From Alphaproteobacteria bacterium (lineage in GTDB: Bacteria; Pseudomonadota; Alphaproteobacteria; CADEGL01), in the NCBI GenBank assembly GCA_026400755.1, contig JAPLOM010000002.1, positions 1 through 63,952 of the forward strand: a DNA stretch of 63,952 nucleotides, read 5' to 3'. Under the pieces are notes generated by a model. The model was given only the letters and a program-made list of their open reading frames with translations, was not told the DNA's origin and ran no database searches. This document shows, one piece after another, positions 36,744-60,418 of this stretch. Position numbers and translations under genes: made by a program. The first letter of the stretch is position 1. Each line of letters begins with the position of its first letter.

Positions 36744-36750
36744 GGGCGCC

Positions 36751-38214: not shown

Positions 38215-38223
38215 TCCGCGTTC

Positions 38224-39669: not shown

Positions 39670-39676
39670 GGCCGGG

Positions 39677-41062: not shown

Positions 41063-41098
41063 GGTGGTTTGCGCGCGAAGCGGGAACTCCGCTTCGGA

Positions 41099-43299: not shown

Positions 43300-43301
43300 G
43301 G

Positions 43302-44330: not shown

Positions 44331-46166
44331 TCAGACGCCGCTCGCCAAGGCGCGCGGCGGGGGCGTAGGGCTGGCATGGGCTTGCTTCGCATAGGCCTGG
44401 GCGTACCACCCACCGCGTTGAATCAACTGTTCGTGGGTACCCCAATCCTCGACCTTACCCTCTCGTAGGACGATGATTCGGTCGGCCCGAACGATCGTCG
44501 ACAGGCGATGGGCGATGACAACGATCGTCTTGTTGGTCGCCTCGCGTATGTGGAACATCGCCGCGCGGAAATTTTCCTCAGCTTCAGCGTCTAGATTGCT
44601 TGTCGGCTCATCAAGAATCAAAACCGGCGCGTCACGGACAAGCGCGCGGGCCAAGTCCAGACGATGACGCTGGCCGCCCGACAGTCGAATGCCATCCTCG
44701 CCGACATACGTGTCGTAACCTTCGGGAAGTAACGATATGAAGTCGTGCGCCCCCGCCAGGCGAGCTGCGGCCTCAACCTCTGCATTGGTCGCATCAGGTT
44801 TGCCATAGCCGATATGTTCGCGCACGGTCACGTCGAAGATTTGCGCGCGCTGGGGTGCATAACTGACACTTTGGCGCAGGCTGTGACGATCAAAAGCCAC
44901 AATGGGAACATCATCAAACGTGATCTGTCCTGAATCCGATTCGCGCAGGCGCAATAGCATGTCGACCAATGTCGACTTGCCTGCGCCGGATGGGCCGACA
45001 AGCGCCACCAGTTGCCGCGCGGGTATTTCGGTGTCGACGCCGTTCAATGCCGGCGCCGTGCCAGTGGGATAGCGGAAGATGACGTTTTCGAACCGGATGC
45101 CCTGTTCCAGGCTTTCGAGTTTGCCGTCACCGCCGCGCGGTTCACGGGCGTCTTGCATGGCCTGCAAACGCTGATAAAACGCGGCGAGATGCGGCAGCAT
45201 ACCCACCATACCCTGGTATTGCTTCAACGCCTCTTTGACGGTCGGAAGCAGCCGTATAGCCACCACCAGCAATACACCGAACTCGCCCAAAGTAACGTTT
45301 AGAATAGTGTAGCCCACATAGACCATGATCAACATGATGCCGATCGCGATCGGTTCATAGAGTACATCGCCGCGCGCCAGCAATGTGCGAGTTCTGATGG
45401 TGCTGTCGCACTGGCTGCTCGATAACTTTCGCTCCAACTCGATTTCCGCATTCTCGATTCCTGCGAGCCGAATCAAGCGCGGCGAATCCAGGCGCTGCAC
45501 TAGGAACGTGGACAGAGTGCGATTGTCCTTCATCAATTGAGTGCCGCTCTGCACAGTCTTGCGGAAGACGCCGGCTAAAACCACGCCAGAAAGCGCCATG
45601 ATAAGCAGCGCAAGAACCACAGCGGGGCCAGAGACGACCATAAGCAGTGCGAGCAGAACGCAGACAACGACGCCATAGCAAGCGATCTGCGGACCGCCGA
45701 ACATGGCGTCGACACCGTACTTCATTTCGTTGAGAAGACTGTTGACCATCGCGCCAACAGAGATCCCATCCTGGTAGTTCGCGTCGGCGAAGAGATAGCG
45801 GCGAAAGCCTTCATCTCTCGCGTTGCGGCCGATTCTTTCGCGGTGACCAATTATATAGATCTGACGAATGTAGAAGACGATTTGCCGCATCAGGAAGGCG
45901 GCGAACATAAGAAACAGAAGCGATTCGAAGCCGAGAGGTAGGCCCAGCGCGCTGTAGCCTTGAACCAGATAACCCCAAAACCGATTTGTAGACGTCAACT
46001 GAGCGATGTCGCCACCGGCCTGCATGTATTGAAAAACCGGCAAGAACATCCCGATACCGATACTCTCGAACACTGCGCTCAAGCCCTGGAGCGCGATGAC
46101 GCCGGCCCAGATGGGCCACTTCAAACCCATCCGCCGGGAAATATTTAAGTACTCGCTGAATGTCAT
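44331..46166 (-). CDS. ABC transporter, fused permease-ATPase (PglK/MsbA-like flippase)
   Basis: A 611-residue half-transporter with six membrane segments (about residues 20-320) and a nucleotide-binding domain. Walker A is GPSGAGKSTLV near 393, the signature LSGGQRHRLDLARAL near 490, and Walker B APVLILDEPTSNLD near 512. It most resembles lipid-linked oligosaccharide flippases such as PglK. No Wzx or Wzm/Wzt is seen in this window, so it is the likely exporter of the assembled glycolipid. ATG 46166 overlaps the nucleotidyltransferase gene as ATGA. The region is noticeably more AT-rich than its neighbours. Confidence 0.88.
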   Translation of the reverse strand: MTFSEYLNISRRMGLKWPIWAGVIALQGLSAVFESIGIGMFLPVFQYMQAGGDIAQLTSTNRFWGYLVQGYSALGLPLGFESLLFLMFAAFLMRQIVFYIRQIYIIGHRERIGRNARDEGFRRYLFADANYQDGISVGAMVNSLLNEMKYGVDAMFGGPQIACYGVVVCVLLALLMVVSGPAVVLALLIMALSGVVLAGVFRKTVQSGTQLMKDNRTLSTFLVQRLDSPRLIRLAGIENAEIELERKLSSSQCDSTIRTRTLLARGDVLYEPIAIGIMLIMVYVGYTILNVTLGEFGVLLVVAIRLLPTVKEALKQYQGMVGMLPHLAAFYQRLQAMQDAREPRGGDGKLESLEQGIRFENVIFRYPTGTAPALNGVDTEIPARQLVALVGPSGAGKSTLVDMLLRLRESDSGQITFDDVPIVAFDRHSLRQSVSYAPQRAQIFDVTVREHIGYGKPDATNAEVEAAARLAGAHDFISLLPEGYDTYVGEDGIRLSGGQRHRLDLARALVRDAPVLILDEPTSNLDAEAEENFRAAMFHIREATNKTIVVIAHRLSTIVRADRIIVLREGKVEDWGTHEQLIQRGGWYAQAYAKQAHASPTPPPRALASGV

Positions 46167-47209
46167 GGTTTGTGGTCTTGTTCGGCCGCAGCCAAGTCGT
46201 GGGGTCGACCAATATCCCGCCAATACTCATGAATCGGGAAAAGCCCAATGGAAAGACCGAGAGCGCGGCCTTCGTTAAGGAGTTCCGGCATATCCATAGG
46301 CCGGTCATTGGGCACCAGCGCCGCGAATCCGGGACCTAAGAGGTAAATACCGCCAGCCACGAAATGGCCGATGCGTGGTTTCTCGTCAATGCGTTCGAAC
46401 AATCCATCCGAGGTATGTCGAATGACGCCGAAGGGGATGTCTATCTCGTGGCGCGCGACACCGATGGTCGCGTCGTAGCTGTGGCGAGTGTGGAACGCGG
46501 CCATGGCGTTGAAATCAACCGCACTGAGAACATCACCGTTTACCACCAGCACGACGTCACGCTGCGGCCGCGGTAGTAGCCCCAATGCGCCGATCGTGCC
46601 GCGTTGTTCGCCTTCATGGACGGTGTGAACGCGGGCCCGGCCCGCACGCGAGCGAATGAATGCCTCGATCTGGTCGGCCAGATAGTGAACCGAGACGAAG
46701 ATCTCAGGCACGCCTGCATCTTCCAGTGCTATCAACACGTGCTCCAGGATCGGTTTCTCACCCACGTCCAGGAGCGGCTTGGGAGTGGTTTTCGTGCGCT
46801 CGCCGAGGCGCGTGCCGCGCCCTCCTGCCATAACCAATGCTGTCTTGATTGCGGCCTTATCGCGTGCGCCGGCAACTAAAACTTCGTACACGCGACCGTC
46901 CGCGTCGAGAACCGGCAGAAAGGCTTTATAGCCACCGATCTTGCGCAGTTTCTCCGCATTGGCGGCATCCTCGTTTATGTGCCCCACCAGAGGATTGCGG
47001 TGTAAGCATCGGCCGACCGGCTCGTCGAGGCTAGCGCCGTCCAATATCGCGCGGCGAACATCGCCATCGGTCACGGTGCCATAAAGCCGGCCGTCGTCGT
47101 CGGTGACGAGCTGGAAAAGATGGTCGGTCGCATTGAGCCGTGCCAACGCCTCGCGGGTAGTCGCATCAACGCGGCAAAGATAAGGCGCGATGTCGATAAG
47201 GCGTATCAC
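46163..47209 (-). CDS. CBS-domain sugar nucleotidyltransferase (PtmE-like)
   Basis: A 348-residue protein. Residues 1-115 are two CBS domains (LVTDDDGRLYGTVTDGDVRRAIL, FLPVLDADGRVYEVLV) that probably sense nucleotides. Residues 120-348 are an NTP-transferase domain beginning ALVMAGGRGTRLGERT and containing VVNGDVLSAVDF. This arrangement matches Campylobacter PtmE, which makes GDP-glucosamine for legionaminic acid. Start is GTG 47209; the adjacent gene ends four bases away. Alternatively it could activate a hexose or heptose phosphate for another branch. Confidence 0.82.
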   Translation of the reverse strand: MIRLIDIAPYLCRVDATTREALARLNATDHLFQLVTDDDGRLYGTVTDGDVRRAILDGASLDEPVGRCLHRNPLVGHINEDAANAEKLRKIGGYKAFLPVLDADGRVYEVLVAGARDKAAIKTALVMAGGRGTRLGERTKTTPKPLLDVGEKPILEHVLIALEDAGVPEIFVSVHYLADQIEAFIRSRAGRARVHTVHEGEQRGTIGALGLLPRPQRDVVLVVNGDVLSAVDFNAMAAFHTRHSYDATIGVARHEIDIPFGVIRHTSDGLFERIDEKPRIGHFVAGGIYLLGPGFAALVPNDRPMDMPELLNEGRALGLSIGLFPIHEYWRDIGRPHDLAAAEQDHKP

Positions 47210-47212
47210 GCG

Positions 47213-47914
47213 TTATCCGATTACGGTTCCAGTCAGCCCACGCGCTGCGACGGCCTCGGCTAAGTGCCAATCGTCATCATCGTCAATATCGATGGCGGCA
47301 ATGCAATTCATCACTAACGGCAAAGTGCGAGGCGGAAACAGAGAGCCAGTTTGCCGCAGTGCATGTGTCCGGACGAGATAGAGGGCGCCGTTGGGTGTCA
47401 GAACGGGACTTGGTACGTCTTCGGAGGACAAAGGCGCGACATAGCCGTCGTCACCAGTCGAGAACAATTGGCGAGGCGTTCGATCAATGCGCGTCACGGC
47501 CACCACTGCGTCGGCATCTGGCTTCGCATCGAGCCGAGCGAGCGCCTCTGTGATGCACGCGCTGCCACGAAAAGGTGAAGTAACCTGCAAAACCATTACG
47601 AGTGCGGGATCGTGGCCGTGAGTATCCGCAAACCAATCGACCGCGTGAATGACGACGGGAACTGTCGCGGCATCGTCGGTGGCGAGCGACGTGGGACGCC
47701 GGAACGGCACCTGCCAGCCCAAGACTTTTCCGGCAGTTGCAATCGCGTCATCGTCGGTCGACAAAACGCATGTCGCCTGTACATTCGAGGCCCGCAGAGC
47801 ATCCGCGGCGCGTTCTAACAGACTGTGTCCCTCCAGTGCCCGAAGGTTCTTGCCTGGCAAGCGTTTCGACCCGCCGCGCGCGGGCACCACAACGAGAAGA
47901 CCGGTTTCGTTCAT
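47213..47914 (-). CDS. CMP-nonulosonate cytidylyltransferase (PtmB/LegF/NeuA-like)
   Basis: A 233-residue enzyme activating a nonulosonic acid as CMP sugar. The nucleotide-binding loop VVVPARGGSKRLPGKNLRAL is the acylneuraminate cytidylyltransferase signature, and VLQVTSPFRGSACITEAL gives the next motif. Placed beside the PtmE-like gene, it probably serves legionaminic acid, while the SpsF-type enzyme at 34945 serves pseudaminic acid. ATG 47914 forms ATGA with the amidotransferase stop. Which of the two synthetases handles which acid is inference. Confidence 0.85.
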   Translation of the reverse strand: MNETGLLVVVPARGGSKRLPGKNLRALEGHSLLERAADALRASNVQATCVLSTDDDAIATAGKVLGWQVPFRRPTSLATDDAATVPVVIHAVDWFADTHGHDPALVMVLQVTSPFRGSACITEALARLDAKPDADAVVAVTRIDRTPRQLFSTGDDGYVAPLSSEDVPSPVLTPNGALYLVRTHALRQTGSLFPPRTLPLVMNCIAAIDIDDDDDWHLAEAVAARGLTGTVIG

Positions 47915-49173
47915 TGCACGCGGTGCCGCAGCTCCCATCCGTTGCTCGTCTTGCGCCACAGATGGGGTGAGCGGAAGCGGTCCGCGATCTCAAAGAACTC
48001 GGCTTCGTTCATGTCCAGATAAGTCAGAAACTCTTTGAGGAATTTGCGCGGCACCTCGCCGTCATAGCGCCGCACCAACGCCACGCCCTCCTCTCGTGTG
48101 ATGTGATGATTGCGGATTTCCTGGCTGGCGTCGTAGGTCGAACGACCCAGACCGAATTTTATGAACGTCGTCCAGTAGTGATAGCCGTCGGTCTTGTCGT
48201 CGATCGAATTGTATTTGGAATAGGTGCCTTCGGTGCGTTCGGTGTTGGCCTGGAACCCGGCATGCTCGACGGAATAGTAGTAGCACTCCTGCGGCGTCCA
48301 CTTGAGGTAGTAGCCGAGGTAGTGCACCGCAATCCCGGCCTTGGCCAGCTCCTCGGCATCGGCGGGCATATAGGGCTCCATGCGGCCGACTTCGATGCCG
48401 TGCGCGGGCAGTTCCTGCAGAGGCACGCCGCCGAAATACATCTGTGCATTGGCCGCGCGTGCGCGGGCGTAATAGGACGCATCACGCCGCGCCTGCTTGT
48501 TCTCCGAGATTGGGTTGCCGTACTCGGCCTCGTTCTCGCCGTAGAAGACCAGCGGGATGTTCATGCGTAGCGCCATCTTGGGCGCATAGTTCTTCTGGCC
48601 CAAGATGAAGGGTTGGAAGGGATGCAGCAGGTTCTTATAAGCCAGCGCGGTCAGCTTGCGGTGCATCAGACCATCGGGGTGGAACAGGAAATTGTCGAAA
48701 CCGGCCTTGTGCACCCAGCCCTGAAAATTATGCCAACCCACATCGGTGTAGAGGTGGGGTGCCCAAGTGACCGTCAACGGGTGCATACTGTACTTGGTCT
48801 TGAGGACGTGCGAGGCGTAGATGGAATCCTTGCCACCCGAGCCGGGCACGAGGCAGTCATAGGATCCGTTGCGCGAGCGATAGCGGTCGCAGACCTCCTG
48901 CAACTCGCGCTCGCGCGCGGCCCAATCGACCATCGTGTCTTTCATGCGCGCGTAGAGGCAGGCGTCGCAAATACCTTCGTCGTTGAAGGCCAGCGTCGTC
49001 TTCTTGGAGCCAGCATGATGCTCGAATTCCACAGCTGACGCTGGTCGCTGGTTCGACATCACGCAGCTTTTGCAGAATTTCACTTCGCCCGGCAGCCCGT
49101 ACTTGACCTCCAGCAGCCCCTCCGCCGGGTCCATCAGGTAGATCTTGCCGTCCTTCTCGATCGTATCGGCCAT
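47911..49173 (-). CDS. N-acetyl sugar amidotransferase (WbpG/PseA/LegA-like)
   Basis: A 420-residue PP-loop enzyme that replaces the oxygen of an N-acetyl group with nitrogen, giving an acetamidino group. The ATP loop is PGSGGKDS at residues 110-117. Two cysteine pairs (CKSC at 34-37, CDAC at 69-72) form a likely zinc knuckle. ENEAEYGNPISENK and GYYLKWTPQECYYYSVEHAGF are family blocks. Ammonia would be supplied by the HisH- and HisF-like proteins encoded next. ATG 49173 has GAGAG upstream. Targets could be legionaminic or pseudaminic acid; PseA and WbpG are both close relatives. Confidence 0.92.
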   Translation of the reverse strand: MADTIEKDGKIYLMDPAEGLLEVKYGLPGEVKFCKSCVMSNQRPASAVEFEHHAGSKKTTLAFNDEGICDACLYARMKDTMVDWAARERELQEVCDRYRSRNGSYDCLVPGSGGKDSIYASHVLKTKYSMHPLTVTWAPHLYTDVGWHNFQGWVHKAGFDNFLFHPDGLMHRKLTALAYKNLLHPFQPFILGQKNYAPKMALRMNIPLVFYGENEAEYGNPISENKQARRDASYYARARAANAQMYFGGVPLQELPAHGIEVGRMEPYMPADAEELAKAGIAVHYLGYYLKWTPQECYYYSVEHAGFQANTERTEGTYSKYNSIDDKTDGYHYWTTFIKFGLGRSTYDASQEIRNHHITREEGVALVRRYDGEVPRKFLKEFLTYLDMNEAEFFEIADRFRSPHLWRKTSNGWELRHRVQ

Positions 49174-49183
49174 TGCTCTCTCG

Positions 49184-49804
49184 TCAGGGCGCGAAGTGGA
49201 CGAAGCGTTCGATCAGGCCAAGGCCGACCGGACCGCTCTTCTCCGGGTGAAATTGAAAACCGACGACGTTGCCACGCCGGAAGGCGACCGGAACATCCAT
49301 ACCGTTGACCGCAATGGTCGCGGCGACGTCCTCGTCTCGCGCAACGAAGGGGGCGTAAGAATGGACGAAATAGACCATGGCGCTTTCCGGCGCGCCTTCG
49401 AAGAATCCGCCGCGCGCCTGCAATGCGCGCCAGCCCACATTGGGAATGCGGATCGAATCGGGGCTACCGTTGCCTTCAGGCAGCCGGCGCACCGTCCCTG
49501 CGACAAGGCCAAGCCCGTCGTGCCGGCCAAACTCCTCGCCTGCCTCCAACATGACCTGCGCGCCAACGCAGATGCCCAGTATGGGCACGCCGCGCGCCGC
49601 CGCGCGTTTCAAAGGCTCAACCAGGTCGCGTGTCCGCAGGCCGTCCATGCAGTCGCCGAACGCGCCCACGCCCGGCAAGACGATGCGCTCGGCACGTTCG
49701 ACCGCGCCTGCGTCGTTGGTGATCTCATAAGGCGCACCCAAATGGCGCAGTGCCTGGCCGGTGCTGAACAGATTGCCGCGCCCGTAATCGACGACGGTGA
49801 TCAC
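49184..49804 (-). CDS. hisH: HisH-like glutamine amidotransferase of the acetamidino module
   Basis: A 206-residue class I glutamine amidotransferase that should release ammonia for the WbpG-like enzyme. It begins ITVVDYGRGNLFSTGQAL. The nucleophile lies in ILGICVGAQVML (Cys near 78), and FQFHPEKSG gives the catalytic His-x-Glu. GVGAFGDCM is the oxyanion region. GTG 49804 overlaps the hisF stop as GTGA. Being linked to wbpG and a divergent hisF rather than to other histidine genes, it is probably not the histidine-biosynthesis copy. Confidence 0.9.
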   Translation of the reverse strand: MITVVDYGRGNLFSTGQALRHLGAPYEITNDAGAVERAERIVLPGVGAFGDCMDGLRTRDLVEPLKRAAARGVPILGICVGAQVMLEAGEEFGRHDGLGLVAGTVRRLPEGNGSPDSIRIPNVGWRALQARGGFFEGAPESAMVYFVHSYAPFVARDEDVAATIAVNGMDVPVAFRRGNVVGFQFHPEKSGPVGLGLIERFVHFAP

Positions 49805-50562
49805 GTCCGCACCGCAATACCATGCTGGACCAGATGATTCTTCAAGGTCGGGACCGGGCAGGTGCCATAGTGGAACATGCTGGCGCAAGCGACTGCGTCA
49901 ATCGTTCCGGTCTCGACGAGCGCGCTCACATGTCCGGGCGTACCCGCGCCACCGCAGGCGATGACCGGAACGCGCACCCGCCCATGAACCGCATCGATGA
50001 GCTCGGCGTCGAAACCGGCCTTGGTGCCTTCCTGGTCGACCGAAGTGATCAGGACCTCGCCCGCGCCCAACCGCTCCGCTTCGACGACCCAGTCCAATAC
50101 GTCGACGCCCGTTGTCTCGCGCCCGTTGTCGGTCAGCGCTTCCCACTTGCCAGGCGCGCGCCGCTTGGCCTCGACCGACAGCACGATGCATTGGGATCCC
50201 AAAGTTTCGGCCGCTTCCTTGAGAAATGAAGGGCGGGCGATGGCCGCGGTATTGATGGCCACCTTGTCTGCTCCGCTGCGCAGGGCTGCCACGATATCGT
50301 CCAACGAACGAATACCACCACCAACGGTCAGCGGCACGAAAACATCGCGCGCGGCTTCCTCCACGACGGTCAGTATGTTGTTGCGTCCATACAACGAGGC
50401 AACGATGTCCATGTAGATGATCTCGTCGATGCCCTCTTCATAATAGCGACGCGCCAACTCGCCGGGTTTGCCGACGATGCGCAGCCCTTCCAGGTGCACC
50501 CCCTTCACGACGTTCGAGCCCTTGATGTCGAGCCGGGCGATGATCCGGACCGGTGGCTTCAT
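49801..50562 (-). CDS. hisF: HisF2/AglZ-like cyclase subunit of the acetamidino module
   Basis: A 253-residue TIM barrel forming an ammonia channel with HisH. ARLDIKGSNVVKGVHLEGLR and MDIVASLYGRNNI are the form found next to WbpG genes, not the classical LDVKDGRVVKG. The first catalytic aspartate of HisF (Asp11 in Thermotoga) is kept in RLDIK. The second (Asp130) is Glu here, in LSVEAKR near residue 130. TSVDQEGTK is conserved. The enzyme is therefore probably specialised to pass ammonia to WbpG rather than to make imidazole glycerol phosphate. Confidence 0.9.
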   Translation of the reverse strand: MKPPVRIIARLDIKGSNVVKGVHLEGLRIVGKPGELARRYYEEGIDEIIYMDIVASLYGRNNILTVVEEAARDVFVPLTVGGGIRSLDDIVAALRSGADKVAINTAAIARPSFLKEAAETLGSQCIVLSVEAKRRAPGKWEALTDNGRETTGVDVLDWVVEAERLGAGEVLITSVDQEGTKAGFDAELIDAVHGRVRVPVIACGGAGTPGHVSALVETGTIDAVACASMFHYGTCPVPTLKNHLVQHGIAVRT

Positions 50563-50571
50563 GGCTTGGAG

Positions 50572-51381
50572 TCAGGCCGCCGACCGGCTGCGCCGACGCA
50601 CATCCAGCGTCGCATAACCCTGCATGATGCGGCTGGCGATGAACAGCAGCGCGGCGACGCCGTAGAGGAAGGCCAATAGGACGAGATAAAGGTCAAGCCG
50701 ATCCCAACAAAGAGCGGCGGCTAAGCCCGCATAGCGCAGGTCGAAAACGGAGTTCATGCCACGTGCATCGAACGTCAATACGGCCCGCCCTGCCGGCGAT
50801 GCCAGAAAAGCGTTCAACCAAGGATGGTTCGCGGGGCCAGCCGGCAGACCGGATCGCCTCTGCTCTTTTTCGAGGAGCAGTTCGAACATCGAAAACCGGT
50901 GAATCAGCAAGAATACGAACGAGAGCGCCAGGGTCGCGGCCGCGCCGACCAAAACCGGGGCCGGGCTTGCTTCCTTCGACAGCCAGAGATGAATCCCGAG
51001 TGCCAGCGGAAACAGGAGGTCTGCCATCATGTCGACCAGGCCATCGAAATATTTGCCAAAATAAGACGCGCTGTCTTGCAGCCGACTGAGATTGCCGTCG
51101 ATGCTGTCGGCGATCACAGCTAGCACGTAGAGAATTAACCCCATGATCAGCCCGGCCGCGCTGGGGTTCGCGATACAGACTGCTCCGGCCAATATCAGCG
51201 CGACGCGCAATGCCGTCACCTGGTTGGGCGACGCCCCGATGCGCGCCGCAACGACGGTGAGCGGCCAAGCCGCCGGGACGAAGACGAAACGCATGACCAA
51301 TGGCAAGGAAACCCGCGCGAGATTTTGGGACGCGCGTACTGCGGCTATGCTGATTCGCGCGCTTGGTCCTTCGGCGTTCAC
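50572..51381 (-). CDS. CDP-alcohol phosphatidyltransferase family protein
   Basis: A 269-residue membrane protein with about six hydrophobic segments. It carries the family motif as ADSIDGNLSRLQDSA followed by GKYFDGLVDMMAD, that is D-x2-DG...G-x3-D-x3-D with Ser in place of the usual Ala. These enzymes transfer a phospho-alcohol from a CDP donor (or CDP-diacylglycerol) to an acceptor alcohol. In a glycan operon it could add a phosphoalcohol or build a special lipid, but neither donor nor acceptor is evident. The GTG 51381 overlaps the next gene as GTGA; longer readings add 48 unlikely residues. Confidence 0.78.
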   Translation of the reverse strand: MNAEGPSARISIAAVRASQNLARVSLPLVMRFVFVPAAWPLTVVAARIGASPNQVTALRVALILAGAVCIANPSAAGLIMGLILYVLAVIADSIDGNLSRLQDSASYFGKYFDGLVDMMADLLFPLALGIHLWLSKEASPAPVLVGAAATLALSFVFLLIHRFSMFELLLEKEQRRSGLPAGPANHPWLNAFLASPAGRAVLTFDARGMNSVFDLRYAGLAAALCWDRLDLYLVLLAFLYGVAALLFIASRIMQGYATLDVRRRSRSAA

Positions 51382-52901
51382 ACGCGTTCCGGCTGGCTTG
51401 CGGGCCGTTGCCCCAAGTTCACATCCTTCAGACCGCGCAAAAGCGCATCGCACGCGTCCTGGACAGCCCGTGGCTCGAAATTCGTCAGGACGCGGTAACT
51501 GTAGCCACAAAGATCGAATGAGCACGCCTTCACCGCGGCCAGGAACCGGGCGCCGTCCGTGCGGGCGCGTTCGCTGGGCGCGGAGTGTCCGAAAGCCTCG
51601 TGGAGATAGCTCGCGAGCTTGGATTCGTCTGTGACCACCCGCACATGGGGCAGGAAGCCGTAAATGTTATGGCGACCAAAGGCGATCACCGGTTTGCCCA
51701 GCACCGCAGCCTCGAATCCCGCGGTACCGCAAATGGTTACGGTCACGTCGGCGGCCCGAACGCAATCCAGCCCGAACTCGGTCGGATCGAGCAGCACGAC
51801 ATTCTTGAACTCCGCGATCTGGCCGTAGAAGTCCTTTGGGCGTCGGCCGATCGCGGTCATATGCTCCTTCACCACGAGAATTGTGCCTGCGGGCAAATCT
51901 CGCGACACCGCCGCGATCAGCGACAGTTGATAGAAATACTCCGGCGACAGGCCTTGGAGCGAGGTTTCCGGTTCCAGGTGAAGCGGATAGAAAGCAAAGC
52001 GCCGCCCCGTCAGATTTGAAAGCCGTGTTCGCGCCAGGCGCGCCAAGCGCCGACTATCCGCCCAAATCCGATAGAAGTATTTGAGATTCTCGCGCAGGTA
52101 GTAGCCGCGTGCCTTCTGGTATCTGCGCAAGTGCCAATAGGCGTACTTCGCGACTTCGCGTGCGCTGCGCTTGATGAGCGCCAGCGCATTGCGTTGGCTG
52201 ATAAACCAATTGCGAAATTGAAGGTGGCTCGCATACGGCGTTTCTAGTTCCGCGCCGCCGCTCGTTCCGCCGAGCGACCGATAGGCATGTTCGATTTCGC
52301 CGTTCTCGTAGAATTCGTCCCATGCCCAGTTGTGGAAGTTTTGGTAACGGGATCCGTTGATGACGCGATATGGAATGCCTCGCGCGCGCGCGATCAGCGC
52401 CATCTCCTTGTTGCCGTTAATGATCAGGTCGAACCCGCGCGCGGATATCTCATCGCCCCAATAGCTCAAGCTAGCGCAGTAGTGGCGCAGCACGTCGTCG
52501 TAGCTGCTGTTCTCAGACATTCGGGAGCGCGGATGATAATAGCCGCCAAGGGCGTAACCGCGCCCCAAGTGGCGATTGGTGATGACAAGCGTGTTGAGTG
52601 TGGCGCCCAGCCGATCTTCCCACCTCCTCGCCGACGCGACGAGTGCGTCTCCCGACGGCAAGGCGTCGAGTCGCCCGCGAAATGGCGGATCGAAATCCAC
52701 GATCTCGGAAAAAACACCGTCCTTGTTCACGCCGGCGTAGAACGCGACTTCCTGGCGGTTGCTGCAGTAGAGAATGATTGAGGCTCCGGTCCGGCGCTTC
52801 ACTTCGGTCGCGATCGCGGTCATTAAGAAGCGCGTCTCGGAACGTGCATAGAGAGCGATCTGCTTGGGCACGAACGGGCTATGCGGCGTAATGGGGTTCA
52901 A
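51378..52901 (-). CDS. Capsule-biosynthesis-like GT-B protein
   Basis: A 507-residue protein. An N-terminal strand-helix unit (IALYARSETRFLMTAIATEVKRR, ASIILYCSN) and a C-terminal domain (GTILVVKEHMTAIGRR, CVRAADVTVTICGTAGFEAAVLGKPVIAFG) fit the capsule polysaccharide/KDO-transferase GT-B pattern, in which the Glu of GFEA contacts the donor. The middle, about residues 110-330, is rich in Tyr, Arg and Trp and unassigned. The start is TTG 52901, two bases after the stop of the next gene upstream. It could transfer one of the nonulosonic acids; confidence in that is low. Confidence 0.6.
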   Translation of the reverse strand: MNPITPHSPFVPKQIALYARSETRFLMTAIATEVKRRTGASIILYCSNRQEVAFYAGVNKDGVFSEIVDFDPPFRGRLDALPSGDALVASARRWEDRLGATLNTLVITNRHLGRGYALGGYYHPRSRMSENSSYDDVLRHYCASLSYWGDEISARGFDLIINGNKEMALIARARGIPYRVINGSRYQNFHNWAWDEFYENGEIEHAYRSLGGTSGGAELETPYASHLQFRNWFISQRNALALIKRSAREVAKYAYWHLRRYQKARGYYLRENLKYFYRIWADSRRLARLARTRLSNLTGRRFAFYPLHLEPETSLQGLSPEYFYQLSLIAAVSRDLPAGTILVVKEHMTAIGRRPKDFYGQIAEFKNVVLLDPTEFGLDCVRAADVTVTICGTAGFEAAVLGKPVIAFGRHNIYGFLPHVRVVTDESKLASYLHEAFGHSAPSERARTDGARFLAAVKACSFDLCGYSYRVLTNFEPRAVQDACDALLRGLKDVNLGQRPASQPERV

Positions 52902-52903
52902 GG

Positions 52904-53731
52904 CTACGACCGGCGGATTTCGATATATTTGCCGATGCGCTGTCGAAAAGCCTGGAACGCGGGCAAGTGCGTAGGGTCTGCTCGGAAAGGATCCAAGTGT
53001 TCGTGGTCTGAGATCAACGCCGGATCGTGCAACGAATGCTTGACATTGTAGGTCACTAGACGATTGGACGCGGTGAGTTGGATTTGTCCGAACCAGCTCC
53101 GCTCATCCGGCCGCAGCAATTCGATAAGGGCCGCGCTGCGCACGCTGAGTGGCGGAATCTTGATATTGCCGGACGTGCGTCCGTCCTGCGTCAAAATCTT
53201 AGCTAAAACCGGCCGCTTGTAGGGGTTGATCAGCGTGATGCTTTCGGCGAGGTCGCGGTCACGATCCAAGTGTACGACCGGGTAGCCGTCCACGAATCGG
53301 CCAAACATCGCGATCTGGCTGATGACCGGCGGCGCCCCGTATTTATACGCATTATCGGAAAAGAAGGATTTCTTTCCAGGTGCGGTGTAGATCGTATAGA
53401 AACCGATGGCGGCCTTGTTCGCGAAAATCTCGCGCTCGTCCGCATCGTGGAAGCTCAACTCCAGAAAGCCATTCCGCTTTTTCCATGCGTCGCCCACATC
53501 GCGCCACACCAACGGCGCTGGAGCGTGGGTAGGACGCTTGTCCCCTCTGAAATCGATGCGTTGCTCGCCTTCGTGGACGATCCGGCCTTCGTGATAGATG
53601 TAAAAGTGCGCGACGACCGTGCAGGAGGTCGCGTTTATCCGACGGGCAATCGCGTCGACCGGAATGGGAACCGTGCAGTCGTAGCCGACTGGCAACGAGC
53701 TGATGGTGGGAAGAACATAATTCCAGGCCAT
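52904..53731 (-). CDS. Uncharacterised beta-rich protein
   Basis: A 275-residue protein I do not recognise. It lacks signal peptide, membrane segments and cysteine clusters. Predicted strands alternate with short loops. Around residue 180, ITLINPYKRPVLAKILTQDGR, then IKIPPLSVRSAALIELL and LTASNRLVTYNVKHSL, look like successive strands of an immunoglobulin-like sandwich, ending in LISDHEHLDPF. The C-terminal half of the [2Fe-2S] protein encoded just upstream has a similar order of strands and ends in LSIDHL, so the two may be paralogues. It sits between a GT-B-like gene and that protein, spaced by two bases on each side. Confidence 0.55.
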   Translation of the reverse strand: MAWNYVLPTISSLPVGYDCTVPIPVDAIARRINATSCTVVAHFYIYHEGRIVHEGEQRIDFRGDKRPTHAPAPLVWRDVGDAWKKRNGFLELSFHDADEREIFANKAAIGFYTIYTAPGKKSFFSDNAYKYGAPPVISQIAMFGRFVDGYPVVHLDRDRDLAESITLINPYKRPVLAKILTQDGRTSGNIKIPPLSVRSAALIELLRPDERSWFGQIQLTASNRLVTYNVKHSLHDPALISDHEHLDPFRADPTHLPAFQAFRQRIGKYIEIRRS

Positions 53732-53733
53732 TG

Positions 53734-54744
53734 TCAGAGATGATCTATGGAAAGTCGGTCAAGATCGGGGGTTGCGCAGAACAGGTGCATCTTGCCGAGC
53801 CCGTCAGTGCGGAACCGCACGCCGAAAAGCGTCCCCTTCAAAACGCGCGATGCTGGATCTGACAGGATGATTTCGTGGAGCGCCGCACCATAAGCTGGAA
53901 TAGACAGCCGGTGAGAAGAAGATGCGGCGCCATCGGCGAACGGATAGGCGATCTCGACACCCAAAGGTGAGGCAGACGCGTTGACGGCACTCACGAAAAG
54001 CCGTTCGTCTGTGGGGCGATGATAGACGCTGAGCCATCGATCTCGCAGCCGTCCCGGTGCTTGGCTGTGGACGGCGCAAGCGCCGCCTGCGCTGACGATC
54101 TGAACCTGCGGCCGCGTCGTGCCTCTTACGCCTGGGGCGCGGAACCGGCGCGAGATACGAACCGAGCCGATGCCGATTTCCCCGGATGGCGTACCCAGAT
54201 GGTGAGATACGGAAATCCGCTGAGCGGTACCGGCATTGGTCGAGTGGGTTTCGTGATGGACCTCGTGTCCCGCCTCGTCGCGAACAACGAGCGTCAAATC
54301 CATGTCTGTCGCGCAGACGTCGGATTCATACAGCAGAGACTGGTTGGCGACACACACACATTCCTCGAAGCCGGATCCATAAAGCACCGGCATATAATCG
54401 GCCAGCGGCATCGGAGTCTGTGGCGACAAACTGTCGAGAAGACGATAGAGCCGCTGCTTGAGCGAAACCGTTTCACGGCGACGTTGTGCTCTGCCCGATG
54501 CCGCGGAAGCCCCGCCACCCCGCGGAAGCGTGGTGTAGTGGTATTCGAGGTCCAGCAGGCAGGCCGTACAAGTGCCGCCGGCACCCGTCTTCTGAAGCAG
54601 GGCATCGAAGGAGATATTGGGCTGTTCATTCAAGATGCGCTGAAGATCGGTCAGGCGGAATTCCTTGCATGGACACAGCATGCCATCTCCGCTGTCCGGC
54701 CCGGCATCCGGCTTCGCGATCATCGAACTTTCAGATGCCGCCAT
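53734..54744 (-). CDS. BFD-like [2Fe-2S] domain fused to an unknown beta-rich domain
   Basis: A 336-residue protein. Residues 22-65 have the cysteine pattern C24-x-C26-x32-C59-x2-C62, with CPCKEFRLTDLQRIL and LLQKTGAGGTCTACLLDL, the layout of the bacterioferritin-associated ferredoxin (BFD) fold that binds one [2Fe-2S] cluster. After a basic linker, residues 110-336 form a beta-rich domain of unknown function, with further cysteines at ECVCV and VCATD. No signal peptide is visible, so it is likely cytoplasmic. ATG 54744 overlaps the NeuC-like gene by 14 bases; ATG 54723 is possible. A role in electron transfer to, or regulation of, sugar modification is conceivable, but nothing in the sequence proves it. 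Confidence 0.65.
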   Translation of the reverse strand: MAASESSMIAKPDAGPDSGDGMLCPCKEFRLTDLQRILNEQPNISFDALLQKTGAGGTCTACLLDLEYHYTTLPRGGGASAASGRAQRRRETVSLKQRLYRLLDSLSPQTPMPLADYMPVLYGSGFEECVCVANQSLLYESDVCATDMDLTLVVRDEAGHEVHHETHSTNAGTAQRISVSHHLGTPSGEIGIGSVRISRRFRAPGVRGTTRPQVQIVSAGGACAVHSQAPGRLRDRWLSVYHRPTDERLFVSAVNASASPLGVEIAYPFADGAASSSHRLSIPAYGAALHEIILSDPASRVLKGTLFGVRFRTDGLGKMHLFCATPDLDRLSIDHL

Positions 54745-55918
54745 GTGGGCCTGCGCTGTCCGCTTCACCCGGCGATCCCCACGGCGCAATGAAGTGCTGG
54801 GTTTCTGCAGCGAAGCGCTTATAAAGAAGCCGCGCCGTGCCGTGCATCTCGGTCACGGCTTCGGCTACGCGAGCCGCCGCGTGTCCGTCGCCGTACGGCG
54901 TTGTGTGCGGTAATCGCGGCAGTACGCCGCGCAGCATCCGCGCCACCTCGTCCGCGTGGGCAGCGCAGTCGCGTACATTGGCGCCGCGTTGCCGTCCACC
55001 TTGCCGTTCGCCGACATTGATCACGGGCAGACCGAACAGCCCGGCCTCGATCACGCCGCTGGAGGAATTGCCCACCATGACGGCGGCGTGGCGCAACGCG
55101 TTGGCGTAGAGCGTGGCGCCTAGCGTTTCGCGGAAGACGGCGCGACCGTGCTTGCTCACGAAGGCATCGATACGCGCCCGCGCTTCGGCGCCGCCGGGGT
55201 CGGCGTTAGGCGCTGTGATCAGCGATGGACCCGGCGTGGCTTCGAGCGCGGTCAAGGTGGCATCCACTGCGGCTAAGGGTGCCGTCACGTTCGTCTCGGG
55301 ATGGACGGTCACGAGGCGCAGGCCCTCGATCGAGGCCAGACCCAATTCCCGCGCGAAGGCCGCGCCGTCCAGTACAGGTGCCTCGACCAGGGAATCGAGG
55401 CCAGGCGCGCCAGTCACCCGGATGCGCCAGGCTTCCTCGCCCATGCGCGCAATCCGCTCGGCGGCTTCAACGTTCGCGGTGCAGTGGAGGTGGGATAGTT
55501 TGGTAATGGCGTGCCGTACGCGATCGTCGGCGGCACCATAGGTCAATTCGCCGCCATGCAGATGCACCAGCGGAACGTTCAGCGGCACGAAGCCCATGAC
55601 GGCGGGCAACATGTCCAACCGATCGCCCATAACGAGGGCGCGGTCCGGCGCGATGCGCGCGCCCAGGCGGCCCGCGGCGGCGGCGATGCGCGCCATGGCG
55701 TCGGAGGCGGCTAGCCCATCGCGGCCGCCCATGTCGGCGCCCTCAGTGTGCCCGGTCGCGCCGTGCGGCAGAGCCGCACGCACGGTCGAGTCGTCTGAAA
55801 CATGGGCGCCGGTCAACATCACGTGCAACTCAACATCCGCACGGTAGGCCAAGGCGCGCCACACCGGCGCCAGGATGCCCACGTCAGCGCGTCCACTGGA
55901 AACGCTCAGCACCTTCAT
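54731..55918 (-). CDS. legG: UDP-sugar 2-epimerase, hydrolysing (NeuC/LegG-like)
   Basis: A 395-residue GT-B-fold enzyme that releases UDP while epimerising C2, giving the free 6-carbon precursor of a sialic-acid-like sugar. It begins VLSVSSGRADVGILAPVW (canonical TGTRADYG), keeps LVMGDRLDMLPAV, VHLHGGELTYGAADDRVRHAI and VGNSSSGVIEAGLFGLPVINVGERQGGR. Being followed by NeuB- and NeuD-like genes and LegC, the substrate is likely UDP-2,4-diacetamido-2,4,6-trideoxyglucose. ATG 55918 shares one base with the neuB stop; GTG 55921 is equally possible. Confidence 0.88.
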   Translation of the reverse strand: MKVLSVSSGRADVGILAPVWRALAYRADVELHVMLTGAHVSDDSTVRAALPHGATGHTEGADMGGRDGLAASDAMARIAAAAGRLGARIAPDRALVMGDRLDMLPAVMGFVPLNVPLVHLHGGELTYGAADDRVRHAITKLSHLHCTANVEAAERIARMGEEAWRIRVTGAPGLDSLVEAPVLDGAAFARELGLASIEGLRLVTVHPETNVTAPLAAVDATLTALEATPGPSLITAPNADPGGAEARARIDAFVSKHGRAVFRETLGATLYANALRHAAVMVGNSSSGVIEAGLFGLPVINVGERQGGRQRGANVRDCAAHADEVARMLRGVLPRLPHTTPYGDGHAAARVAEAVTEMHGTARLLYKRFAAETQHFIAPWGSPGEADSAGPHGGI

Positions 55919-56919
55919 CACACCAGATCGCCTGAGCGGATCGCCGTGTCCGCGCGCCGCGCGCGCTTCAGACGGCGCCCAAAGGGCGCGTTGCTCGGAG
56001 ACAAACCGTCGGCGGGGCGTTTCAGCACTAAGTCGTCCTTGGCCAGCGTCGTGCCGGCCGAAAGATCGCGCCGTGCATGCCAGCTCCGGCGCACCAGGTG
56101 CGCGACGGCCGTCTCGCCGCGCGCAGGTCGCTTGATGCCGTCGCCCAGCGCGGCTGCGGTCTCACGCAGGCGGACGATCATGTCTTTCAGCTCGGCGGGT
56201 TCCAGCGATGCCTTGTGATCAGGGCCGGGCAATGTGCGGTCGAGGGTGAAATGTTTTTCTATCGCGACAGCGCCCAGCGCCACGGCGGCGACGGAAACGT
56301 GATCGCCCATCGAATGGTCGGAATAGCCCACATCCACGTCGAACGCGCGCCGCATGGTTTCGATCGCTCGTAGATTGATTGCGCTGACGGGTGCGGGATA
56401 GAGCGAGGTGCAGTGAAGCAGCGTGACGTCCTTCGCACCCGCGCGGCGCAGAACAGCCAACGCGCGGCCAACCTCGGCTTTGGTCGCCATGCCCGTGGAC
56501 AGGATGACGGGCAAGCGGAAGCGGGCTAACTCGCGCAGCATGGGCTCGTTGGTCAGCTCGCCCGACGGAATCTTAATCCGATCCATTCCCATGGCGATCA
56601 GGGGTGCCGCCATCGCGGTGTCGAATGGCGTGACCAGGAAGCCGATTCGCGCGCGGCGGCATTCCTTGGCCAGCGTGGCGAAGTCGGACAACGACAGTTC
56701 GAGTTTCCGCAACAACGAAAGCTGGTTGCGCACGCCCGCGTTCTTCTTCTGATAGGCTGCCGTCGCCGCGCGATGCGAGACTAGTGCTTCGGCGCGGAAA
56801 GCCTGGAACTTCACGTAATCGGCGCCTGCACTGGCGGCTACGCGCACCATCTTCTTGGCGCGCGCCAGGCTGCCGTTGTGGTTCACGCCGGCCTCGGCGA
56901 TCACAAGCGGCGCTGTCAC
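55918..56919 (-). CDS. legI: N-acetylneuraminate/legionaminate synthase (NeuB/LegI-like)
   Basis: A 333-residue TIM-barrel enzyme condensing the NeuC product with phosphoenolpyruvate. LVIAEAGVNHNGSLARAKKM, DYVKFQAFRAEAL, YQKKNAGVRNQL, KIPSGELTNEPML and GYSDHSMGDHVS are hallmarks of the NeuB branch. The PseI-specific GLWDGRTLYDLY block is absent, so it differs from the synthase at 35685. The C-terminal SAF domain (RRSWHARRDLSAGTTL) is present. GTG 56919 gives GTGA overlap with the acetyltransferase gene; the longer reading adds 37 arginine-rich residues. Confidence 0.92.
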   Translation of the reverse strand: MTAPLVIAEAGVNHNGSLARAKKMVRVAASAGADYVKFQAFRAEALVSHRAATAAYQKKNAGVRNQLSLLRKLELSLSDFATLAKECRRARIGFLVTPFDTAMAAPLIAMGMDRIKIPSGELTNEPMLRELARFRLPVILSTGMATKAEVGRALAVLRRAGAKDVTLLHCTSLYPAPVSAINLRAIETMRRAFDVDVGYSDHSMGDHVSVAAVALGAVAIEKHFTLDRTLPGPDHKASLEPAELKDMIVRLRETAAALGDGIKRPARGETAVAHLVRRSWHARRDLSAGTTLAKDDLVLKRPADGLSPSNAPFGRRLKRARRADTAIRSGDLV

Positions 56920-57491
56920 GGCTTGCCGCCATGGCGCGTCAGCGCCGGTACCAGCGCTTCGTCGGCAACCATCGAACTCGACAGCACCACGGCGCTCGCG
57001 CCGATCATGACGCAGCGCCCTACGCAGCAACTGCCAAGGACCATAGCGCCCGGAGCTACATGGCTGCCTTCGCCAATCATGCTGTCATGCTCGACCACGG
57101 CGCGTGTGTTGACGATGGCACCGCGTCCGATCACCGCGCCCGGTTGCACCACGGCACCGGCCAGCACGATGGCGCCCGCTTCGAGCGTCGCGGCGGGACT
57201 GACATGGGCTTGTGGGTGGACGATGGAGGGTGCGGGATGGCCACGGCCGATATAAGCATCGAGCAGAGCGAGGCGTGCCTTGAGCTGTGTGGCTGTTACA
57301 CCGCCCATGCCGAGGACGATTGGGATGCCGTTGGTTTTCACGTCCGTGTCCGCCGTCAATTGCGCGGCGTGCAGCCAATTGGACGGGCGCGGATCGACAT
57401 AGGCCACAATGGGGCCTATGGAAGCGGTCGCCGCTTCCGCCACCGCTTTCGCGTGACCACCCGCGCCGATTAGGATGCAGGCGATCGGCAT
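56916..57491 (-). CDS. NeuD/PglD/LegH-like sugar N-acetyltransferase
   Basis: A 191-residue protein. Residues 1-80 have the UDP-sugar-binding Rossmann-like half (ACILIGAGGHAKAVAEA, VAYVDPRP). Residues 85-185 have hexapeptide repeats (AHVSPAATLEAGAIVLAGAV) and the family His in AVVEHDSMIGEG. It is predicted to acetylate the 4-amino group made by LegC. It lies between LegC (two bases away) and the LegI-like synthase, exactly where a LegH would be expected. A NeuD-type O-acetyltransferase is the alternative. Confidence 0.85.
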   Translation of the reverse strand: MPIACILIGAGGHAKAVAEAATASIGPIVAYVDPRPSNWLHAAQLTADTDVKTNGIPIVLGMGGVTATQLKARLALLDAYIGRGHPAPSIVHPQAHVSPAATLEAGAIVLAGAVVQPGAVIGRGAIVNTRAVVEHDSMIGEGSHVAPGAMVLGSCCVGRCVMIGASAVVLSSSMVADEALVPALTRHGGKP

Positions 57492-57492
57492 C

Positions 57493-58611
57493 TCAGCCGC
57501 CCGCGCGCCGCGGCCATTTGGCCAGCACCGCGATGACGCGCGCCTGCTGTTCGTCGGTCAGCGACGAGCTGCAGGGCAGGGAGACCACGGTACCGGACAG
57601 TTTCGCGGCCACACCGGTCAGGCGGTGCGGTGCGTGGGCATAGAGCGCCTGATCAGACAGGGTGCGCCAGAAAGTGCGCGCCTCGATGTCGTGCTCGGCC
57701 ATGTGCTGGACGAGGTCACGCGCCTCGGCCTCGCCGCGGCAGCGCACCGAATAGAGCCAGCACGCGCTTTCGCCCCACGGCGTGCGTGGCATGGGCTGCA
57801 TGTCGTTGCGTCCGGCGACGGCGCGATCGTACGTTGCCGCAATGCGCCGCTTGGCCGCGACCATTTCTTCCATCCGCTCGATCTGTGCCAACAGGACACC
57901 TGCGTTCAGGTTGGTCATGCGGTAGTTGAAGCCAATCTCATCATAACGATACTCGGCACCGCTGCGCGCCTGGGCCGAGATGGCGCGAAGGCGCTTGGCC
58001 TGGCTCTCGTCGTCGGTCACCACCATGCCGCCGCCGCCGGCCGTGACCGTCTTGTTGCCGTTGAAGCTAAAGATGGCCATGTCGCCGAGCCCGCCGACGG
58101 GCCGGCCTTTGTAGCGCGCGCCGATGGCGCCCGCGGCGTCCTCGATTAGGGGTATGCCCGCTGTCCGGCACAGGGACAGAAGCGGATCGACATCGGCCGG
58201 GTGGCCCAGTACATGGACCACGAGAACAGCGGTGATGCGGCCGGGCGGATCGCGCAGAATGGCTTCTAGCACGGCGGGATCGAGCGACCAGCTTTCCTCG
58301 GTTACGTCGGCGAAGATCGGAATCGCGCCCGCGTGGTGCGCGGCGTTGGCCGTAGCAGCGAAGGTCCAGTCCGGTACCACGACATGATCGCCTGGCTTCA
58401 CGCCCGCGGCCGTCATGGCTAGCTGCAGCGCCGTCGTGCCGTTTACCGACGCCACGGCATAGGCGCGCCCGGCCAGGGCCGCGATCTGCTTTTCGCACTC
58501 GGTCACGAACGGGCCGGCCGAGGAAACCCAGTTATCCTGCACGCAGCGCGCGAGATAGGCGCTCTCGTTGCCGCGCAGGTCGGGAATCGCGAGGGGGATG
58601 CGTTCGCTCAT
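57493..58611 (-). CDS. legC: UDP-4-amino sugar transaminase, LegC-like
   Basis: A 372-residue DegT-family PLP aminotransferase adding the 4-amino group to the LegB product. RIPLAIPDLRGNESAYL, VQDNWVSSAGPFV and SVNGTTALQLAM are typical of LegC/PglE. IFSFNGNKTVTAGGGGMV holds the PLP lysine near 188. ATG 58611 has no good ribosome-binding site; a TTG at 58638 would add nine residues. This is the first gene of the long minus-strand array after the AT-rich gap at 58612-58810, which contains a candidate promoter. Confidence 0.9.
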   Translation of the reverse strand: MSERIPLAIPDLRGNESAYLARCVQDNWVSSAGPFVTECEKQIAALAGRAYAVASVNGTTALQLAMTAAGVKPGDHVVVPDWTFAATANAAHHAGAIPIFADVTEESWSLDPAVLEAILRDPPGRITAVLVVHVLGHPADVDPLLSLCRTAGIPLIEDAAGAIGARYKGRPVGGLGDMAIFSFNGNKTVTAGGGGMVVTDDESQAKRLRAISAQARSGAEYRYDEIGFNYRMTNLNAGVLLAQIERMEEMVAAKRRIAATYDRAVAGRNDMQPMPRTPWGESACWLYSVRCRGEAEARDLVQHMAEHDIEARTFWRTLSDQALYAHAPHRLTGVAAKLSGTVVSLPCSSSLTDEQQARVIAVLAKWPRRAGG

Positions 58612-58733
58612 GGCTGGGGTCGGGCAAGACGGAGACAAGGCTACCGCACGGCGGGTGAAGCGCTCTCCCGCATCAAGTCGGAATCAAGCGCGCCTATTAG
58701 ACCAAAAGCATTTGAAAAATAAAGAATTTTTTG

Positions 58734-58810: not shown

Positions 58811-60418
58811 CTAGGCGGCGGCGTTATTACGCGCTTCGCGGAGAGCAAAAATCTCGGCGCGTTCGGCGCGCAAAAGTTTCACCATCTCGTCCATGATCGC
58901 GCGTTGATCGGGGTCGGCGACAATGTTGCGTATTTCGCGCGGATCGGCCAGCCGGTCGTAGAATTGTTTCACATCCAAGGTCGCGCCCTTCAGCACAGCC
59001 ATCATCTTGTGGCGCGGCGTTGTCATCGTGAAAAAAATATCGCGGCGGGCAAGGTCGGCATTGCCGTGGCCGCAATTCTCGGAGATCACGAAAGCCCGAC
59101 CGCTGCGCAGGCCGCTCACGCCCTTAAAGCTTTGATGCGGGGGAACGTCGAGCGCGTCCAGGAAAGTGGCCGTCACCCCCATGCTGTCGATCATCCCGGC
59201 GTCGGCTGGGGCGCGCCGCGAATTAGCCAGTAAAAGCGGAACCTCAATATCCTCGTAATGGGTACGGTAGCCGATTTCCGATTTCTTCCGTGGACTTTCG
59301 GCGTAATAGAGACCGTGGTCGCCGGTGACGAGGACGACGGTATGTTCCATCTGCCCGGTGCGTTCCAGACTATCGATCACTTGGCCCAGCAGATGATCGA
59401 CGTACATGACCGCCGTGTCATAGAGCCAACGCCGCTTGGTGCGGCCTGTAAGGCGGCCTACCAACCAACGTGGCCAAAATCGGGCGCGCGCCAGGATGTT
59501 GCCCGGCCGGTTTAAAGCTCGGCAATCATGCACATCCATGGCATGCATATGGATGAACCATCGCGTCTGCGCACGCGATTCGATGAGGCGGCACAAAGGC
59601 GCGACGATGTCGCCAAACACCACCGGGAAATGGGACATCATCAGGAAAGGCCAAGTGGTCTGGGCGGCAATCCAGCCGCGTGTGCGCCAGCGCATGGCTT
59701 CCATTGCCCGATGCCAAAAGAGCCTGACGCCGCCAGGCGCGTGCTCACCCAGGAAACGCCAGTAGATGCCGGGCGCGATGCCAGTCAGTTTTGCCATCAC
59801 TGCATCGGGTTCGCGCTCGAGCAGCGCACGTTCGGCTGCGCATCCTTTCGCCACTCGATCATTGATGCGCATCAGCTTGGGTGGCCACAAAGATTTGTCG
59901 TGATGAACGATCAGTTCTTCGATGCCGTCCAGAAGAAGGGTGACCTCTTTGATGATCTTCTCTCTTTGATCGGCAGTCCGCTCCAGCGTCAGTTCGTAGC
60001 GCAGGGTTCGACCGATGCGCTGCTCCAAGAGTACCCGGAAATCGGATGTTGTACGGATAGTGTCGAACCCGCGCCCGTATCCCGTTGCCACGCCCAGCTG
60101 GTTGCAACTGGCCAGAAGATGCGTCTCGAAGCCTGCGTCCTTAATCGATTCCGCAAAACTCTTGGGCCGCTCGCGGATACCGTTGTTATAGCCGCCGTAG
60201 TCGAGTGGATAGGTCAGCGAGAACAGCGCCGGCATTACGAATTGCGTAGACTGGGCGTTGGTCACCACTTGGCGGACGAACCCGCGATCGACGAGCCGCG
60301 CCAAGTTAGGCACTAAGTAGCGACGCGCCGTCGGGTCGGCCAGAACGTCATAGCGCAAGGCATCAATGAGCAGAAAAAGCGCGTTCTTCTGCGGTGCCTT
60401 TGGTACGCGGTCATTCAT
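58811..60418 (-). CDS. Alkaline phosphatase/sulfatase superfamily protein
   Basis: A 535-residue protein with the metal-binding start LFLLIDALRYDV, a candidate Ser/Thr nucleophile in NAQSTQFVMPALFS, and LVTGDHGLYY with the Asp-His metal ligands. The formylglycine motif CxPxR is absent, so it is not a classical type I sulfatase. It resembles phospho-alcohol transferases or phosphatases. No membrane segment is obvious except a weak hydrophobic stretch near 250, so it is probably cytoplasmic. It could transfer or remove phosphate or a phospho-alcohol on the glycan, which would fit the CDP-alcohol enzyme at 50572. It is followed by an AT-rich 192-base gap. Confidence 0.7.
   Translation of the reverse strand: MNDRVPKAPQKNALFLLIDALRYDVLADPTARRYLVPNLARLVDRGFVRQVVTNAQSTQFVMPALFSLTYPLDYGGYNNGIRERPKSFAESIKDAGFETHLLASCNQLGVATGYGRGFDTIRTTSDFRVLLEQRIGRTLRYELTLERTADQREKIIKEVTLLLDGIEELIVHHDKSLWPPKLMRINDRVAKGCAAERALLEREPDAVMAKLTGIAPGIYWRFLGEHAPGGVRLFWHRAMEAMRWRTRGWIAAQTTWPFLMMSHFPVVFGDIVAPLCRLIESRAQTRWFIHMHAMDVHDCRALNRPGNILARARFWPRWLVGRLTGRTKRRWLYDTAVMYVDHLLGQVIDSLERTGQMEHTVVLVTGDHGLYYAESPRKKSEIGYRTHYEDIEVPLLLANSRRAPADAGMIDSMGVTATFLDALDVPPHQSFKGVSGLRSGRAFVISENCGHGNADLARRDIFFTMTTPRHKMMAVLKGATLDVKQFYDRLADPREIRNIVADPDQRAIMDEMVKLLRAERAEIFALREARNNAAA

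Follow-up and report, generated by a model that had tools for sequence, protein, structure and literature searches.

Paired [2Fe-2S]-domain and beta-sandwich genes in alphaproteobacterial nonulosonic acid loci: a predicted ASRAH-like fold and a possible role in glycan recognition

What do three closely packed genes contribute to the long legionaminic/pseudaminic (nonulosonic) acid locus in which they lie? The genes, here called FES, BETA and GTB, are encoded on the minus strand of contig JAPLOM010000002.1 (assembly GCA_026400755.1, Alphaproteobacteria), in a stretch of 63,952 nucleotides that was analysed as a whole and is referred to as the window. FES encodes a [2Fe-2S]-domain protein, BETA a beta protein and GTB a KpsC-like glycosyltransferase of the GT-B type (Table 1). 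An earlier, sequence-only reading had proposed that the trio may be a self-contained device for recognising or modifying a nonulosonic acid-containing chain. Here we present the occurrence, predicted folds and genomic context of the three genes, which point to FES-BETA as the unit and to GTB as a gene of the core pathway.

Fifteen FES-BETA loci were gathered from three seed loci; all belong to Alphaproteobacteria, and the named records are environmental metagenome-assembled genomes. In all 15 loci FES and BETA are direct neighbours in unchanged order and either overlap or are spaced by a few to about 20 bases. Among 385 genomes sampled from Alphaproteobacteria, full-length FES and full-length BETA occur in an identical set of 10, and the other FES matches are short and cover the iron-sulfur domain alone. 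Pairwise distances of the two proteins correlate at r=0.90 (15 loci), as compared with -0.02 to 0.68 for GTB, WbuX, ABC, LegI, HisF, PtmE and LegF against either FES or BETA; on the locus subsets of those seven genes the FES-BETA correlation is 0.79-0.95. Such linkage is what two subunits of a single complex would show when the complex reassorts between loci, and we infer from it that the two proteins probably associate physically. The most divergent FES-BETA pairs lie in genomes that each have six or seven homologues of NeuB (L038, 12057-16116; L039; G260; G151). In a 299-genome sample of the phylum only the window's own genome matched, with none outside Alphaproteobacteria. Searches for carriage of the pair by phages or plasmids and for a PADLOC defence system gave no matches, and no signal peptide is visible in the FES and BETA sequences.

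GTB is distributed more widely. Of the 385 genomes, 29 have homologues: the 10 that carry FES-BETA and 19 that lack the pair. The three genes are therefore found together elsewhere, as the sequence-only reading had required. The hypergeometric P for GTB in 10/10 is ~1e-12 with the genomes taken as independent, which overstates it, although the ten span seven families. In eight of these ten GTB shares a contig with the pair, at a distance of up to about 30 kb, and the pair depends on GTB in a nested manner. Genome G002, from the same family as the window genome, has GTB, the CDP-alcohol (cytidine diphosphate-alcohol) phosphotransferase, HisF, HisH, WbuX, LegF, PtmE and the ABC (ATP-binding cassette) transporter in window order and no FES-BETA. 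Because this locus is kept from GTB onward without the pair, FES-BETA is accessory to the core pathway and GTB is a core-pathway gene. The idea of a self-contained trio thus held for the strictly linked pair and failed for GTB, with its 19 genomes lacking the pair and its lack of co-evolution with either partner.

According to AlphaFold models of the single chains, built from 8-row alignments, FES consists of an N-terminal BFD-like [2Fe-2S] domain (residues ~20-70), a linker helix and two beta-sandwiches, D1 (~107-228) and D2 (229-336). BETA consists of an N-terminal beta-sandwich D1 (1-~128), a C-terminal D2 (145-248) and a basic C-terminal helix. Mean pLDDT (predicted local distance difference test) is 77.9 for FES and 73.3 for BETA, the latter with a pTM (predicted template modelling score) of 0.47. 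The strand order E-E-E-E-E-H-E-E-E is common to both C-terminal domains, each modelled as an eight-stranded beta-sandwich with TM1070 topology. Their best PDB match in VIA-align is the same, TM1070 (1nc7), with Z 11.0 and 3.2 Å over 101 residues for FES D2 and Z 10.8 and 2.9 Å over 99 residues for BETA D2. For BETA D2, ranks 1-5 are TM1070 and four entries of the Anabaena sensory rhodopsin transducer (ASRT; Z 9.3-9.6), and the next unrelated fold scores 6.3. Two differing query sequences thus converge on the same small structural family.

Profile comparison of FES D2 with ASRT gave a score of 28.4 (shuffle maximum 18.1; reached by 0/150 shuffles). FES D2 compared with BETA D2 gave 19.9, with a maximum of 18.5 in column shuffles and 0/150 as good; in this alignment the strand-2 Asn is in register, as are the strands that come after it. 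At the level of whole proteins no signal was obtained between FES and BETA (probability 0.3%), the relation being visible at domain and structure level only, and FES D1 against D2 did not rise above shuffles by profile (33/150). By sequence, no solved structure is related to BETA, and FES has one match at chance level (E 0.6). BETA D1 was likened to viral jelly-rolls, for which the best structural rows reach Z about 6; this relation was not accepted.

The ASRAH superfamily has two hallmarks, an almost invariant Asn that closes strand 2 and a conserved Trp that opens strand 1 (PMC2739507). The Asn is present in 15/15 sequences in FES D1 (N134), FES D2 (N255) and BETA D2 (N169); the Trp is found in 8/15 in FES D2 and in none of the BETA D2 alignment. 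No member among 8 FES and 8 BETA sequences matches PF07100. The convergence on one family and the strand-2 Asn, yet with neither PF07100 nor the ASRT ligand signature, therefore place FES D2 and BETA D2 by their modelled fold in the ASRAH superfamily but outside the ASRT family itself. The comparison of the two beta domains had been set beforehand as a test and returned the same predicted fold; the shared beta-domain with common strand order noticed in the sequence-only reading is thereby supported by models, best PDB match and shuffles alike. The similar C-termini LISDHEHL and LSIDHL noticed at the same time map to the equivalent final strands of these domains. FES ends in S-I-D-H-L and BETA carries D/E-H-L, the His (FES H335, BETA H245) being present in 15/15 of each, and the motifs nearly coincide in the two most divergent loci (SMDHF / NIDHL in L039, SQNHF / SLDHL in L038).

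The assignment of FES as a [2Fe-2S]-domain protein was likewise borne out. Its putative cluster cysteines C24, C26, C59 and C62 follow the pattern CxC-x32-CxxC and are invariant in 15/15 sequences. Fer2_BFD (PF04324) matches 8/8 members of the first FES family alignment (best 2e-10), and the window FES alone falls under the Pfam gathering score (18.0 vs 26 bits). FES carries a BFD-type [2Fe-2S] domain by its four cysteines and profile, and the cluster itself is predicted.

The capsule-like nature of GTB was also supported, with a match to Pfam Capsule_synth (PF05159; 24.0 bits, cut-off 20) that is found in 4/6 members of the GTB family, and a weak similarity to KpsC (6mgd, E 2e-4). The pseudaminic acid transferase KpsS1 of A. 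baumannii is itself a KpsC homologue (PMC12887879), and GTB is therefore a candidate nonulosonic acid transferase, with a CMP-activated (cytidine monophosphate-activated) ulosonic/nonulosonic acid as predicted donor.

As to the ligand of the pair, NeuB is present in 9/10 FES-BETA genomes vs 46% of the class (P 0.005), G187 being the one without a NeuB match. WbuX-like genes occur in 10/15 FES-BETA loci and HisF-like genes in 7/15. A Methyltransf_12 methyltransferase lies directly beside the pair in 7/15 loci (L004, L005, L006, L034, L035, L036, L038), more often than GTB directly adjoins it; it was not found in the window. This methyltransferase is a possible fourth member of the system. In L036 (5979-11650) the pair lies beside a phosphoenolpyruvate mutase-nucleotidyltransferase fusion and a thiamine pyrophosphate enzyme, which suggests that this genome encodes a glycan decorated with phosphonate, and a carbamoyltransferase is found at the locus of L008. 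Given these varied clusters and the absence of NeuB from G187, the ligand may be wider than nonulosonic acids and not the same everywhere. Flagellin_N had no match in 3/10 carriers, the window's own genome included, and G000, at 100% completeness, is among the three; flagellin glycosylation is therefore rejected as the general purpose of the pair.

Sugar binding has been predicted for the ASRAH domain, which in families other than ASRT is found as dyads or tetrads (PMC2739507). This fold, the proposed sugar binding and the dyad/tetrad habit support a role in recognition, and the frequent methyltransferase together with the optional presence of the pair suggests finishing or licensing over core synthesis. 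We therefore tentatively favour, at slightly less than an even chance, a cytoplasmic FES-BETA heteromer with an accessory reader function: it would bind an intermediate or chain end that contains a nonulosonic acid, and would aid a late step. The heteromer would be obligate and would hold one BFD-type [2Fe-2S] cluster. Its ASRAH-like domains would number no fewer than two and probably three or four, which would suffice for a pseudo-tetramer of TM1070/ASRT type. Its ligand would be a glycan intermediate or chain end in whose assembly the KpsC-like GTB is involved, and it would license or direct capping, methylation or hand-over to the ABC flippase. The cluster would be structural, or would tune the complex by redox or iron state. 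A stricter version, in which a two-protein ASRAH-like pseudo-tetramer binds the nonulosonic-acid end and releases or licenses it for export according to the state of the [2Fe-2S] cluster, so that display of the surface sugar would follow the redox or iron status of the cell, is considered rather improbable.

The pair might instead be catalytic, its [2Fe-2S] domain feeding electrons into a redox reaction that modifies a nonulosonic acid or the acyl group on it while the ASRAH-like domains hold the substrate. BFD-type domains do occur in redox enzymes (the FES family has weak NCBIfam matches to NirB, GlpA and NifU), invariant polar residues are many (R211, H226, Q228 and H335 in FES; D156, R224, H232 and H245 in BETA), and the pair sits among sugar-modifying genes. 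This reading is lowered by the absence of a recurrent oxidoreductase beside the pair among the neighbours checked, and no flavin or second metal domain was found; we regard it as unlikely. An intracellular sugar or iron sensor regulating the enzymes of the cluster would agree with the role proposed for cytoplasmic stand-alone ASRT/ASRAH proteins (PMC2739507), with the redox or iron sensing that a [2Fe-2S] cluster could add and with the optional presence of the pair in otherwise similar loci. However, neither a DNA-binding nor an output domain was found, no regulator was seen to recur beside the pair, and its presence tracks GTB (10/10), so that a sensor is not a likely explanation.

Least credible is that the pair serves membrane-associated glycosyltransferases as a chaperone or as a scaffold for their assembly, with a purely structural cluster. 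The association with GTB and the basic C-terminal helix of BETA would fit such a role, but GTB occurs in 19 genomes without the pair and its distances are uncorrelated with those of FES (r -0.02) and BETA (0.29, 6 loci), which makes a physical link to GTB unlikely. The same lack of correlation also weighs against the favoured reading of FES-BETA as a glycan reader, as do several further points. Genomes with GTB and nonulosonic genes exist without FES-BETA, and FES-BETA exists in loci without visible nonulosonic genes (the phosphonate-type L036 and L008 with its carbamoyltransferase); the proposed recognition or modification of a nonulosonic acid-containing chain thus gains from the predicted sugar-binding fold and loses from these loci. 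The relation of BETA D2 to ASRT is seen in structure alone (108/150 shuffles as good by profile), BETA D1 has no assignment to the ASRAH fold, and confidence in both models is medium. The sequences lack the ASRT ligand signature SHEshChhN, its ligand residues H and C differing here. The fold of the C-terminal domains, the invariant cysteines, the linkage of the pair and its accessory status come from computation, and complex formation, ligand, reader role and cluster role are inferred from them.

FES, BETA and GTB are separated by 'CA' and 'CC', two bases each, and the FES start lies inside the 3' end of the NeuC/LegG-type gene (overlap ~14 bp); the tight spacing among sugar-pathway genes described earlier agrees with these gaps and with the profiles of the neighbours. 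Genes of the LegI, PglD and LegC types follow further upstream. On its downstream side GTB is followed by the CDP-alcohol phosphotransferase, HisF, HisH, the amidotransferase WbuX, LegF as the CMP-sugar synthetase, the PtmE-like nucleotidyltransferase and an ABC transporter. The motif DxxDG..(S)R...G...D...D of the CDP-alcohol phosphotransferase is intact; the gene lies between GTB and HisF, keeps its position beside GTB in G002 and is found near FES in L008. The window apparently holds full pseudaminic (PseB, PseC, a PseG-PseH fusion, PseI, PseF-like) and legionaminic (LegC, PglD, LegI, NeuC, LegF, PtmE) pathways plus the acetamidino module in one locus; assignments beyond the profile-scanned genes were made by reading of the sequences. 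A sulfatase-family protein of the window, which may modify the same glycan, recurs in the GTB/FES-BETA loci L007 and L033 at 53-58% identity.

Table 1. Features of the window discussed in the text
Feature	Coordinates	Strand	Product or profile match	Position
FES	53734-54744	-	336 aa (amino acids), [2Fe-2S]-domain protein	
BETA	52904-53731	-	275 aa, beta protein	
GTB	51378-52901	-	507 aa, TTG start, KpsC-like GT-B	
NeuC/LegG-type hydrolysing epimerase	54731-55921	-	TIGR03568, 280 bits (cut-off 236)	upstream neighbour of FES
CDP-alcohol phosphotransferase	50572-51300, start approximate (longest open reading frame from 51525, 50572-51525)	-	PF01066, E 7e-12	downstream of GTB
HisF-, HisH-, WbuX-type genes (acetamidino module)	47911-50562	-	WbuX TIGR03573, 360 bits	
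Pseudaminic and legionaminic pathways with acetamidino module	34945-44321 and 46163-58638			
Sulfatase-family protein	58811-60418			

No paper joining these domains was found in a literature search, and Pfam, NCBIfam and PADLOC hold no family matching BETA or the beta part of FES. Within a domain superfamily that is already known, FES-BETA appears to combine families in a new way, and the pair appears undescribed. For an unnamed pair of genes in alphaproteobacterial nonulosonic acid loci, the analysis provides a partner and a fold that can be tested. It also extends ASRAH, a superfamily predicted to bind sugars, to an obligate pair that bears an iron-sulfur domain, and it suggests a way in which chains might be recognised as finished or modified in glycan loci that have no Wzt-type domain. 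A functional cluster would newly connect the assembly of surface glycans with redox or iron state.

Among known systems, FES shares the four-Cys CxC-x32-CxxC pattern and the profile match with BFD-like [2Fe-2S] domains (PF04324), but it is fused to two beta-sandwiches and has no ferritin partner and no attachment to NirB or GlpA. GTB shares the profile match and the nonulosonic acid locus setting with the KpsC/KpsS GT-B transferases (PF05159, including KpsS1), to which it is distantly related. With ASRAH members (ASRT, TM1070; PF07100) FES and BETA have in common the predicted fold, strand order, strand-2 Asn, occurrence as dyads and sugar-gene context; they differ in the BFD [2Fe-2S] fusion, in always being two different proteins encoded side by side and in lacking both PF07100 and SHEshChhN. 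FES-BETA is not a member of the Wzt family, as the pair is encoded apart from the ABC protein and has an iron-sulfur domain, and Wzt_C (PF14524) is absent from the 10 genomes (0/10 at E 0.001) and from the Pfam matches of FES and BETA members. Nevertheless, the pair may act like the C-terminal carbohydrate-binding domain of Wzt in Wzm/Wzt O-antigen exporters, as a cytoplasmic beta-sandwich reading the modified chain end before export, and the methyltransferase often found beside it is a further point of likeness.

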